Part shown: positions 8,089 through 15,600 of the stretch, in pieces
How the letters are laid out: each line of letters begins with the position of its first letter
Position numbering within the stretch: the first letter of the stretch is position 1
Origin: Oryzias latipes
Lineage: Eukaryota > Chordata > Actinopteri > Beloniformes > Adrianichthyidae
Assembly: GCF_002234675.1 (NCBI RefSeq)
Contig: NC_019866.2
Location: 12,367,261-12,431,260, forward strand
Length of the DNA stretch: 64,000 nucleotides
Reading direction: 5' to 3'
Position numbers and translations under genes: made by a program
The notes under the pieces: generated by a model
Told to the model about the DNA's origin: nothing
The model's database searches: none
What the model saw: only the letters and a program-made list of their open reading frames with translations

Positions 8089-11000
8089 CTAGTGAAATCT
8101 CTCCAGCTGCTTCCTTAAGAAATCTGCATATCTATGGATGTCTGAAATGCGCGTGCGATTCTGTTGAGTTACTTTGTCATGAACCTGCAATAAGGACAAA
8201 CAAAGACAAGGTAGTGATCAGCCAAAGCCAGTTTCTGTCAATAATTCTTAAATACTTAAATGTTTATTCATAATAAATGTAAGAACTCACATCTTTGAAG
8301 AAGGCAATTTTCCAGGAACTCACTGATGTAAGTAACTTTTGCTCTCGGTCATTGAGAGTCAGCAGGTGGAGTTTATGGTTTGTGTTCAGTGCATGCATCA
8401 CTTTTATTTTGTCTGTAAACAACTGGACACACACAAAAAAGGGTAAAGCAGGTGGCTTTTTAAATCAGAGATAACATATGAAATGTAATAAAACTTCTCT
8501 TTATATGTTACTTGAATGCTATTTAAACCAATTTCTCTATTTTTATGTGCACAGCAAACTGTCAACTACTTTATCTTGCCTTATTAGATCTCTAACATAC
8601 AGAGGTTGACATGAAAAGCACCCATACCATCTTTACATCATGTGGTAAGTTTTCCACCTGACTTCCTTTGGCAACATTCTCCAGAGTTGCATCGATAATT
8701 TCTTGCACTTTGTGATGAAAATCATCTTCCAGATTCCGACATTCAGTAAATGTATAAATATGTCAAAGAAGTAATATACAGAAACAGGAACACAAAAAAA
8801 TGCATACCAGTTATTGTCAAATTCCTTATTCCACTATTGGTCACAAATTATATATAACATTTTCTTTCTTTTAATTTAAGGTGATAAAATTCAACTTTTC
8901 TGTGCATCAGATTCATCGAGCTTTAAAAGTTATTCCTGTGTGTTCCAACTTTTATTGATTACTGCCAACATCCTCTGTCTAAAAAGAAGCTGCAGAGCCA
9001 TAACCTCATCAGCATGTGGCCCTTTTCTTCGGCATTAATCCATACTGCTGCAAACAAGTGCTCACTTCTGACTTCAGTCAAGCTTCCACCACTGATTCCC
9101 ATGAGTTTATTGTGACTCACAGGTTTACTCCTCTGTAATGTAGCTGAGTAAGAGTTGTGGTTCTAAACCACAAATCTATTTGTTAAGAAGTAAAAAGTAT
9201 AGTAGCGAATTTTATTTTGAAAAGCTACAAAAGTAACTATTTGCTGCCCAATTTTGCATGGAACATTTTTACAAATATTTACCATACAGTACATGCTAAC
9301 TGTGAATGTTTATATTTCAGCTGGGCTAAAATCAAGCATTACAATGCAACTTCTATGTGTTAAGCAGATTTGGGAATAAAAGGATATGTTTCTTGAGCAA
9401 TTTCAATGAAGTCTGTGACCTTGTCTGAGATGCAGGTTTCAACGTTTCTGATGTTCTCCTGAAAATATAGAGTTATCAAAGTAAAATGAATAATTTGGAG
9501 ATACATTAATAAAATCTACAACCAAAATCAAACAAAGTGTGAAGAGAACAGATTTGCAGAACGATATTTTTGACGAAAACTGATTAAAATAGAAGTTTTG
9601 GAACATCGACTTTTGAACTTAAGTTAAAGAACTTAAAGACAAGAATACAAGTTATGCTAAAATGGTGAAGTGGCAATGATGAAACCCAACACCTTACCTT
9701 GCTTGTTACATTATGTTCGATTGACAAAACAGTGTTGTTCAATGTTAAGCAATTTTATTAATTTTGAGATTATATTGCCAAATACTGAGTGGTTGCCAAT
9801 CTTTAGGATTATATTACATCCGTGTGCAGAAAGACTTAAAAAAGAAAGGGGAATCCTTTTCACTTAATGTATTAGGAAGCTGACAAAAACAGAAAGATAG
9901 ACATATGATTAATTGATTAATAGACTAAAGTAAAAAGCATGTATAAACCATTTCAAAAGTTGCAGACAGAGACACTTTTGGAGTGCATTTTCTTTTGGAT
10001 CGTCTATGTTCTTAAAAATGACAAATTACTCACACGTGAGAACAATCAAATGCATAAGTACAAACAGAAGTACCTCCAGCTTGCTGATAAGCTTAAACTC
10101 CAGTGTCATCAGCCTTTCAGAGAGTTTGTTGATTTCATCATAGCCACGGCTGAGTTCCTCGGAAACTGAGTTTCGGAGGGTTAATTGCTCCAACTTTTTA
10201 ATCCTCTAAAGGATGACAAAAGAAAATATTGATTAGTTGTACCATATTCTTTTTTACTGAAGAACACTTTTTTTTTCATTTTACAAAGCAGTTCCTGTTC
10301 TCTTGCCTCTTTGTGCTGCCTATTAAAATCCTCCAGAACTTGAATTGCTTGGTTTTTGTAGTGCGTCTCTACCTCATCCTGGGAACTGGAGAATGACTTC
10401 AGCTCTCTTTCCCTCTGTTCACGCTCTGCCAAACCTCTGTCAAACAACTGCTTACACAGCCCCACCATTTGGTTTTCAAATGTAAAGCACAGAGTTAAGG
10501 AGGTCAATGACGGAACTGCTCAGGCTGTTCAACAAGCTGTGATCAATCTGAGTGTTAGAAAATCGGAACAAAGGATATGACTGAAGGAGATCCTCTATTC
10601 CTGGAACAGAACGTCTGTCTGATGAGAACGTATCTTCATCAAACATGCTTTTAAACAAATGTGGCCCATCGAGGTACTCAACAAAGGCCTCCTATGAAAG
10701 AGAAGAGCACACTTTAGACAGCAGGAAAAAATCACGGCATCTGATAATCAGCATTAACAAACTGAAAAAGCGTGTTTGTACTTTGTGTAAATTCAGTTCA
10801 GCTTCTTGTTTTTGCAGAACTTCTTCAGCTAGTTGCTTTTGACTCTCCTCTTGATTCCTTTTCTCGATGTCATCTTGGTATTTGCTGGATGCCTTTTCTT
10901 TCTGCATGCATAGACATAAATGGTTTACCTCAAAGCATTTTACACAGAAAAAATCACATAAAAAATACAGTTTTAATATAGGTTTCATGCTTCTGTGTCA

Positions 11001-11875
11001 TAACTTACCAGCTCCTGGAGAATCAATTTGTTGTCCAAGACTGTCAAGTTTGGAAAAAAAGCAACAATAAAAAACTGGTAATCGTCCTCGTTGGAGAAGA
11101 GATTTCCCTTCATGTAAATGTGGACCAATTTCTTAAACCTCTTTAGGTACAAAACCTGGGAAATGCACAAGGTTTTACAAGGTTTTAAAAGTAAATCTTT
11201 AAAAAGCCACACACAATGTTAAACTATGTTTGTAGCACTAAAAATAAAAATTTATTGTACGAAAATAAATGTTCTTACATTTTCCAGCTGGTTTAGGAGG
11301 TTACATCCAATGAAGAAATGAGTGAGGTTGTCAAGTGTGTCCATGTTCTCTATGACGGTGATTTGGTTGTTTGACAAATTCAGGACCTTGAGTTTCTGCA
11401 GAGATGTCAGACCCTGGATTTTCTCGATCCGGTTAAATGACAGATCTGTAACACAGCAAGTCTGATGGTCATTCATGCTGTTATTTTATATGTCTTTCAA
11501 AGTCATGTGATATTCCTGGCAAGGATAAAACGCCTTTTACTTAGCCATGTCAAATTAATAAGAGAATCCAGGCCCTGGATCTTCTTAATGAGGTTATTGT
11601 TTAGGTCAAGCCGAACCAAGGAGGTATATTCTTGCAACGAGTCAATCCTTTGGATATCTGCAAAACAAATTACCCCCATGTAAATAAAATACTTATTTCT
11701 GCATTTGTTAAGGGTTAACTTTATTACTCTCATTACTTTGGTATTCCAGTTTAATGACATCAGCTTCAGGGAGACAAATGTTGTCCTCTTTGGACATTAA
11801 ATCAGATTTGATGCTGTTTTTCTCTATTGCATTCTGGATCATCTCCCTGTTCATCCTGTTGGGTACTGGATCCAT
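8089..11875 (-). CDS. drc3: Dynein regulatory complex subunit 3 (LRRC48)
   Basis: Twelve coding exons: 11875-11737, 11657-11541, 11445-11279, 11155-11009, 10901-10782, 10691-10579, 10481-10307, 10205-10074, 9458-9388, 8751-8628, 8422-8291 and 8184-8089. Together they give 510 aa (human DRC3 is about 523). Residues 45-150 hold SDS22-type leucine-rich repeats (YTSLVRLDLNNNLIKKIQGLDSL, KLKVLNLSNNQITVIENMD). The rest is mostly coiled coil, with the conserved blocks AFVEYLDGPHLFKSMF, PGIEDLLQ, RLMTLEFKLISKLE and LHLLTLNDREQ. DRC3 is part of the nexin-dynein regulatory complex of motile cilia and sperm flagella. The upstream alternative start in this frame is only TTG. Two introns (10482-10578 and 8752-9387) are AT-AC with U12 signals. 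The exon 7 donor used here is GC; the nearby GT donor at 10284 would create a stop at the next junction. The C-terminus is VHDKVTQQNRTRISDIH...RFH. Confidence 0.93.
8752..9387 (-). other. drc3: U12-type AT-AC intron of drc3 (second)
   Basis: The 5' splice site is ATATCCTTTT at 9387-9378. A branch-like TTCTTTGAC lies at 8770-8762, 11 nt before a terminal AC at 8753-8752. Splicing joins ...IEIAQE to TFTECRNLEDDFHHK and matches human ...IENVQSLMAQCRDLEN without a gap. No AG acceptor fits this junction. Confidence 0.85.
10206..10306 (-). other. drc3: Probable GC-AG intron of drc3
   Basis: The donor GAG|GCAAGA at 10309-10301 matches the strong consensus seen for GC donors. With acceptor TTTAG at 10207-10206, the frame continues as HKE-RIKKLEQLTL. 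The only nearby GT donor (CTTT|GTAAAA, 10284) leaves one base, which joins to TAG or TGA at either available acceptor. Confidence 0.6.
10482..10578 (-). other. drc3: U12-type AT-AC intron of drc3 (first), 97 nt
   Basis: The 5' splice site is ATATCCTTT (10578-10570). An exact branch motif TCCTTAAC lies at 10501-10494, about 13 nt before the terminal TTTAC ending at 10482. Splicing gives GIEDLLQ-S-FENQMVGLCKQLFDRGL, aligned with human GVGELLETYKDKFVIICVNIFEYGL. Without splicing the frame ends in a stop. Confidence 0.92.
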
Positions 11876-12646: not shown

Positions 12647-15600
12647 ATGGAGTTCTTACTTGGAAATCCTTATAGCACACCCGTGGGCCAATGCATAGGT
12701 ATGTCCCTAAATTGTGTTACAGAGTTGAAAAGGTTTTTGTTTTAGTGCAGTATGAATTTCGAGAATTTGCACTAAGACTCTGAGGGGAAAAAAGGAGCTA
12801 GCTGGCATGTTCTAACGTCATCTACTTAGCTAAGCTCATGTTAACAACAAACTAACCGAACTTAGTGCATTACACTGTAACAGTAAAAAACACTGTAATC
12901 ACAACTCATCACTGTAATTGACAGTGATAACTTGTGATGCTAAGTCGTTCACATAGCATCTGATGTGTTATGATATTATAACGCTTTGAAACGAACAAAA
13001 CAACGTTAAAATCATAAAGATTGTGTTGACAGACAGGGCGTGTTGTCTTTTTCATTTTTGTCTTTACACCTTCTTCATGGACATTAAATGAAAAATATAT
13101 GCGGCGTAGCGTATTTATGTAATCCTGTAGCATCTATTTTATTAGGTATTTCATTTCCAGTAGTAAGTAAGTGGACTCAGTTAAAATGAATGTGATTTTT
13201 CATTTAGTCTTGGTGCAAACAAAGACAGTTTTCAGTACTACAATGTGTGTTTGGCTCAATTCCATAAATAAAAAAAGGATTTTTGGATGCATGATGATCA
13301 TGCAAATATCATTGAAATCTGGTAAATCACAGTCTGGAGGAATGATGCACATCTACACAGTACAACAGCTTTACACCTCTGCTTCTGCTGACATTTTAGC
13401 CATAGTCTTTGCAATATCTTATCTAATATTCTCCTTTTTTAGTTCTTTAGATGTATTTATTTGATCTAGATTGGTTGAAATCATGTCTGTTTTAGGAAAA
13501 TCATTATGTTTCTGCTGTGCATTCATTTTACTAATACTCCTTTTGCTATATATTTGTCTCCTAAGTCATACTCAGCTGTTGCAGCTCTTGGCCTTCCAAA
13601 CTGAATAAAAAAGCAGGAAATGTTCAACTATTTTTGCCTTTCTCAGCTCGTAAAGGATGCATATTTATTTTTCTGATAAGTTGTCGTGTAGATGTAGCAT
13701 TTAGCTGAATTTCACAGAATTGTCTGTGTTCCCAGTGGAGCTTTTATAAACCAGTCAATTGCAATGATGTGTTTAACTCAACAAAGAATTAATCGATCTT
13801 TATACTCAACAAAAGAGAAGGATACAATGCTGCTAAGTTTTATTTACTATATTGAAATAGAGCAGAAAAATGTTTGTGTGGAAAAAAGTCTTAAAAGTCT
13901 AATCCGAGGAGCCATAGAAGGACTTTTTTTTAAATCTTTGTTGGCATGTGCATGGCACTGCTTGGCTCTTTTTAAGCCACGTGACCGACCCGCTTCATTA
14001 GTGGTGTTAATACTCGGCTGCCGTGTCTTTAAATGTGCATGAATGCTACGATCCGGGCACCCCTCCATGATAATTTAATGCACTTCATTTTTGTCCTGTC
14101 TCCTCCTGTGCTGCTTCTTCTGCCCTGCCCTGCCATGACATGGCAATCCCCTTTAGGAGATTAGGCTGGACGTGGCAGGAGCAGAAGCTGCTGACCTAAA
14201 GGTCGCCGTTCGTGCTCCACAGCTTAGCACCGAAACGGCAGAAGGCAGCAACGGGTTTTACCGTCCTCTTCACGCCTAAGGATAAATTAACGTGAATCTA
14301 GCAACAGCTACACACATTTGTTTGGCCAAACAAAAGGCCGACACTGTGTTTGCCAAGTCTTTAGATGTGAAAGTGAAGATTAGGACTCAGCTGTTGATGA
14401 TTCTTAAAAATGTTGTGGCTGTTTGTGGATTGACACCCTGCTCGGTGGCTCTGAGCCCAAAGGGAGAGGAGCTTTTCATGTTCCAACTCAAAACCCACAT
14501 ATTGAGAATCAGCTCAATCTAAGCCAGTGAAAGCCAGGCCAAAACAAATAGAAGAAGTTATTTTTTTCTACTGCTACATCTCTATGGGGAACAGGAGCAA
14601 AAAAAGAAAAAGCCCAACATGAGTGGCAATACTTTACAGAGTCTTGAAATCTAAAACATGGAGACCAGAATATAATAAATAGTAAGTAGATCAATTTAGG
14701 GTTTTGGTTTCAGTACGTCTGGCTGCATTCATTGCCACCTTCCACTTGCCTGTTGGGTTCTCGCGTTGCACTCAATCATTTCTTTCGATTCAATGCATTT
14801 TTATGCACCTGAGGAGCTGCTGGCGCCTGAAAGGGATGGATAAGAGGGGAGGAAAACTTCCAGCCTCCTTGTTCTCTAACTCTCAACCTGAGACTATATC
14901 CCAGCACTTCTGGCTGTTATTAGTTGTTAGTTATGAATGAATAAAAAGGAAAACACAGTCAGCTACTATTCTTTTGTTGGACATTCTTTGTATGTCTTTA
15001 CTGGACTAAATCAGACCTATTTGTATGAAGGGATGTTTTTCTATTCTCTTGTGAGGAATTAGTTTTTCTAGCTTTTTGGTTGATTTGGAACAGTTTTGAT
15101 CAGGACAGAAAGCCACCCGTTACTTCTATGATTTATTAGAAACAAACAAAAAGAGCGACGTTAGTCTGCATGTCTGCAGTCAAACCCTTTCCTTGGATAA
15201 GTGGCATTAACCTTCTCATGTTTTGCAACAGAGAAAGCTACAGACGGAGGCCTCCAGAATGAGGACTGGACGCTCAACATGGAGATCTGTGACATCATAA
15301 ATGAAACGGATGAAGGGTGAGCAAACGAAATGAATGATTCCTGGTTTATTTGCTTGGGACCATCATTTGTAGGCGTGATGGTGGTATCTGGTCCAGAGTC
15401 ACCTCTGGTCTCCCAGCAGTTTGTAAGGAAACATTTGTTCTTGCTTTGGGCTGGCAGAGGGACTCGAGCAAATAATACACTGACTATTGTTTTAGTCAAG
15501 CACACACACAAACACACAACTCCACACAAAGGCCTTTGTCTTGACCCACTGAATGAATAATTAAAACCTTACATCATCTATCATTTAAAAGTGCTGAACC

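Follow-up and report, generated by a model that had tools for sequence, protein, structure and literature searches.

Putative U12-type AT-AC introns 6 and 9 in the drc3 gene of Oryzias latipes

Described minor introns and the drc3 locus

Genes with more than one minor intron are well documented in mammals, with two minor introns reported in 50 genes and three in 3 genes in both mouse and human (PMC6717393) and about 50 human genes with two in a further account (PMC3584512). U12 introns were described as clustering significantly within the same genes in each of the 21 genomes tested (PMC7367187). The AT-AC subtype accounts for about 22-26% of human minor introns (PMC6717393, PMC7367187) and 22% of U12 introns in zebrafish (PMC7367187), and because of this human share two AT-AC introns in one gene should be less common than two minor introns. 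With independent subtypes, two AT-AC introns would be expected in a few of these 50 genes, making the arrangement uncommon and not unprecedented; a published count of genes with two AT-AC minor introns was not found. An earlier note on this DNA had called two AT-AC introns in one gene very unusual, which overstates the case given the approximately 50 human genes with two minor introns and the established clustering, and drc3 with its intron 9 is a good example of the known two-minor-intron genes rather than a new kind. A literature search of main texts returned no paper tying LRRC48 to U12-type introns, or LRRC48 or DRC3 to minor introns, and among the papers listed by broader searches none linked DRC3 with the minor spliceosome; the drc3 AT-AC introns may well already be present in supplementary tables or U12 intron databases.

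Three described systems come closest to drc3 intron 9. Syntaxin 6, among the vertebrate A-type introns, has the same donor ATATCCTTT, a similar branch motif, a short distance from branch to AC, and a position off phase 0, whereas intron 9 sits in a gene with another such intron and contains an old repeat. The SCN and CACN1 channel genes likewise carry two minor introns amid major ones (PMC2831892, PMC3584512), whereas the two in drc3 are both AT-AC and the gene belongs to the motile cilium and not to a channel. The third, SCN4A intron 21, is a U2-type AT-AC intron that has its terminal dinucleotides in common with intron 9.

The window, i.e., the whole 64,000-nucleotide stretch of O. latipes contig NC_019866.2 that was analyzed, holds a minus-strand gene (Table 1) whose predicted protein matched the solved chains 9fqr (residues 4-508, E 2.2e-91) and 8j07 (residues 7-508, E 6.5e-91). 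As both chains are named Dynein regulatory complex subunit 3, the gene was identified as drc3/LRRC48. Eight of its 11 introns had GT-AG ends and introns 6 and 9 had AT-AC ends, while GC-AG was the reading adopted for intron 7; the two AT-AC introns were also the only ones in phase 2, the remaining nine being in phase 0 or 1. The earlier note had taken intron 9 for the second AT-AC intron of its gene, and intron 6 is indeed the other. The boundaries of intron 7 (10306-10206, minus strand) were ambiguous, with GC-AG scoring 119 and GT-AG alternatives 116.

Table 1. Positions in the window of drc3 and of the features assigned to introns 6 and 9.
Feature	Position	Strand	Details
drc3 (LRRC48) coding region	8089..11875	-	12 exons, 510 aa
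drc3 intron 6, putative U12-type AT-AC	10482..10578	-	97 nt, phase 2, donor ATATCCTTTG, branch TCCTTAAC
drc3 exon 9	9388..9458	-	71 nt; homology to DRC3
drc3 intron 9, putative U12-type AT-AC	8752..9387	-	636 nt, phase 2
Putative U12-type 5' splice site ATATCCTTTT	9378..9387	-	starts at 9387; sequence and U11 pairing
Putative branch-site motif TTCTTTGAC	8762..8770	-	A at 8763; final intron base 11 nt further on
Terminal AC of intron 9	8752..8753	-	sequence and in-frame candidate enumeration
drc3 exon 10	8628..8751	-	124 nt; homology to DRC3

Splice signals, reading frame, and alternative boundaries of intron 9

Intron 9 (9387-8752) is very probably a U12-type AT-AC (A-type) intron that would be removed by the minor spliceosome, a reading based on its motifs, their spacing, the reading frame, gap-free homology, and four minor snRNA genes, from which we infer splicing in RNA. 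In the proposed mechanism, U11 would base-pair with CCUUUU within AUAUCCUUUU, and pairing of U12 with UUCUUUGAC would leave the A of the latter as branch point. U6atac would then take the place of U11, and ligation at the AC, 11 nt beyond the branch A, would connect exon 9 to exon 10 with the reading frame preserved.

The consensus of the U12 branch site is TTCCTTRAC. Intron 9 carried the 9-nt donor ATATCCTTT without mismatch and a branch motif with one mismatch to the consensus (T at position 4), and its 3' end read ...TTCTTTGACATATTTATAC, closing at 8752. Compared over the 11 drc3 introns, donor mismatches across the eight bases TATCCTTT numbered 0 in introns 6 and 9 and four to seven in the other nine, while branch mismatches numbered one in each of introns 6 and 9 and three to six in the others. 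The donor and the branch-like motif 11 nt before a terminal AC that the earlier note had read here were all present, and its assignment of a U12-type AT-AC intron was borne out when motifs, their spacing, the reading frame, and homology were tested.

Chance occurrence of these signals was assessed in the window and by shuffling. The 8-mer ATATCCTT occurred four times on both strands of the window, about the number expected from base frequencies by a rough estimate, and therefore the strength of the donor motif rests on its combination with exon edges. The 9-mer ATATCCTTT occurred twice on both strands, each time bordering a drc3 exon. A U12 branch motif (at most one mismatch) lay at the right distance from seven of the 7,016 AC dinucleotides counted on both strands. 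Among 20,000 dinucleotide shuffles of intron 9 with its first and last base retained, two contained the exact donor, 13 the branch motif plus AC, and none both together.

In the genome, U4atac, U11, U12, and U6atac were each matched a single time with a score exceeding the Rfam cut-off. Pairing of the U11 5' end was the most favorable of the 11 donors for intron 9 (-6.1 kcal/mol), with -5.3 kcal/mol for intron 6 and -4.4 kcal/mol for the best of the other nine. The predicted pairing between U12 snRNA and the intron 9 branch region fell in the expected register and left the A at 8763 unpaired. The U12/branch duplex of intron 9 (-4.6 kcal/mol) was weaker than those of seven of the nine control introns (-3.9 to -10.8 kcal/mol) and that of intron 6 reached -10.5 kcal/mol; the energy of this duplex does not discriminate between intron classes in drc3.

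The exon 9/exon 10 junction coded for ...DFIEIAQETFTECRNLEDDFHHKVQEI, which in phmmer alignments was gap-free against ...LFIENVQSLMAQCRDLENHHHEKLLEI of 8j07 and 9fqr (the letters given are those of 8j07, 9fqr being slightly different), in keeping with the gap-free splice alignment described in the earlier note. The more distant chain 8glv also aligned across the junction without a gap. Chains 8j07 and 9fqr we take to be mammalian DRC3 and 8glv presumably algal. Alternative boundaries were enumerated by holding the start of exon 9 and the end of exon 10 fixed and admitting introns of at least 60 nt with GT-AG, GC-AG, AT-AC, AT-AG, or GT-AC ends that left an open, in-frame product of 40-95 residues, each product being scored against the DRC3 of 8j07 and 9fqr. 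Among the 18 open in-frame candidates, the intron 9387-8752 ranked first with a score of 115, its terminal AC restoring the frame. A processed drc3 copy, in which the spliced junction would be directly visible, was sought genome-wide with the 65-residue exon 9-10 peptide as sole query, and the two matches obtained were the exons at the locus itself.

The runner-up in this enumeration used the same U12 donor with an AC six bases downstream, at 8746, which also kept the frame open and scored 104. Use of this AC as 3' splice site, whether mainly or as an alternative, is very unlikely, as its product would be two residues shorter than the DRC3 homologues at this point and its branch distance of 17 nt lies outside the optimum of 11-13 nt reported in PMC6717393, although some use of it is possible. 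Slightly less probable still is removal of intron 9 by the major spliceosome as a U2-type AT-AC intron. Such introns exist, SCN4A intron 21 among them (PMC2831892), and the last 50 nt of intron 9 appeared fairly pyrimidine-rich by eye, but the sodium-channel examples are described with G at +5 (PMC2831892), whereas intron 9 differs from SCN4A intron 21 in having C at this position within a full U12-consensus donor, together with a U12 branch motif at the right distance, and the U2-type identity was rejected on these three features. An intron bounded elsewhere by GT-AG or GC-AG ends is barely credible and was rejected by the enumeration, in which the start of exon 9 and the end of exon 10 were fixed, since the 18 open in-frame candidates included no GT-AG intron and the top GC-AG candidate scored 38 versus 115 and would remove conserved sequence, in agreement with the earlier note's statement that no AG is usable.

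An old dispersed repeat was observed inside intron 9, with an approximate outer span of 9139-9009 (minus strand; intron positions about 249-379). Copies 72-83% identical to it were listed at 24 or more other genomic sites, and it accounts for no more than roughly 130 nt of the 636-nt intron.

Predicted consequences for DRC3 and motile cilia

By translation, the reading frame would end after 402 codons if intron 9 were retained and after 301 codons if intron 6 were, and therefore failure of either intron to be spliced should cost functional DRC3; loss of intron 9 splicing would thus be expected to reduce DRC3. The A-type class appears to be especially dependent on CENATAC, whose depletion affected 92% of A-type versus 24% of G-type minor introns (PMC8280824), and ZCRB1 loss was reported to cause mis-splicing of ciliary genes, with minor-spliceosome disease overlapping ciliopathy (PMC13216214). 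For DRC3 itself, a Lrrc48 missense mutant was described with hydrocephalus, laterality defects, and male infertility (PMC4978901), and Drc3-null mice with shortened N-DRCs and infertile males, and with no further phenotype related to PCD (PMC9832115), so that the effect may lie mainly in sperm.

Sensitivity of motile cilia to minor-spliceosome activity through drc3 is plausible, the link from intron class to ciliary sensitivity being one that we infer. Because of the response of A-type introns to CENATAC loss, the DRC3 phenotypes, and the overlap of minor-spliceosome disease with ciliopathy, drc3 with its two putative A-type introns would be a sensible readout for asking if motile cilia and sperm tails are limited by A-type splicing. 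A stronger proposal, that the minor spliceosome and especially the AT-AN factor CENATAC sets drc3 output in cells that build motile cilia or sperm tails, with a skipped short isoform possible, is unlikely. Joining the intron 6 donor to the intron 9 acceptor would skip exons 7-9 (378 nt) and, as introns 6 and 9 are both in phase 2, keep the frame to give 384 residues; a short isoform could therefore arise solely through exon skipping by the minor spliceosome.

Further U12-type patterns and the surroundings of drc3

Additional U12-type introns were sought in the window from 14 listed RTATCYTT donors, with partners searched within 6 kb and at most one branch mismatch. Five donors had no partner AG or AC, six paired only with AG, two were those of the drc3 introns, and the donor at 13825 had its nearest partner 3.3 kb away, so that the span would extend into drc3. 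In this motif-based survey the 12 donors other than those of drc3 were not accepted as introns.

A genome-wide survey with an AT-AC U12 pattern, weak in that it covered short introns and exact motifs only, was run in two versions alongside a reversed control. The stricter version gave three matches and its control one, the slightly looser version six and its control one, the two versions together marking seven distinct places including drc3 intron 6. Matches that spliced into coding frames were found in syntaxin 6/10, VPS52, and a BRCT-like frame, the last scoring 24.8 and thus below the Pfam cut-off of 27, while coding flanks were not visible by eye for three of the seven (L008, L009, and L013). 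The gene matched at G000:C4:1649557-1649655, whose AT-AC intron is of the U12 type, was ambiguous between the syntaxin paralogues 6 and 10. Syntaxin 6 is listed with an AT-AC U12 intron in PMC2831892, and therefore the pattern recovers a known member; the same source reports a switch to GT-AG in fish, in contrast to the AT-AC ends of the medaka syntaxin 6/10 intron.

Beyond drc3, the first exon of a neighboring gene (7396-7208, minus strand; 63 codons) matched GID4, and human GID4 is presumably also located near DRC3. The GID4-like gene and drc3 are separated by a long ATCT simple repeat (7876-7737, minus strand).
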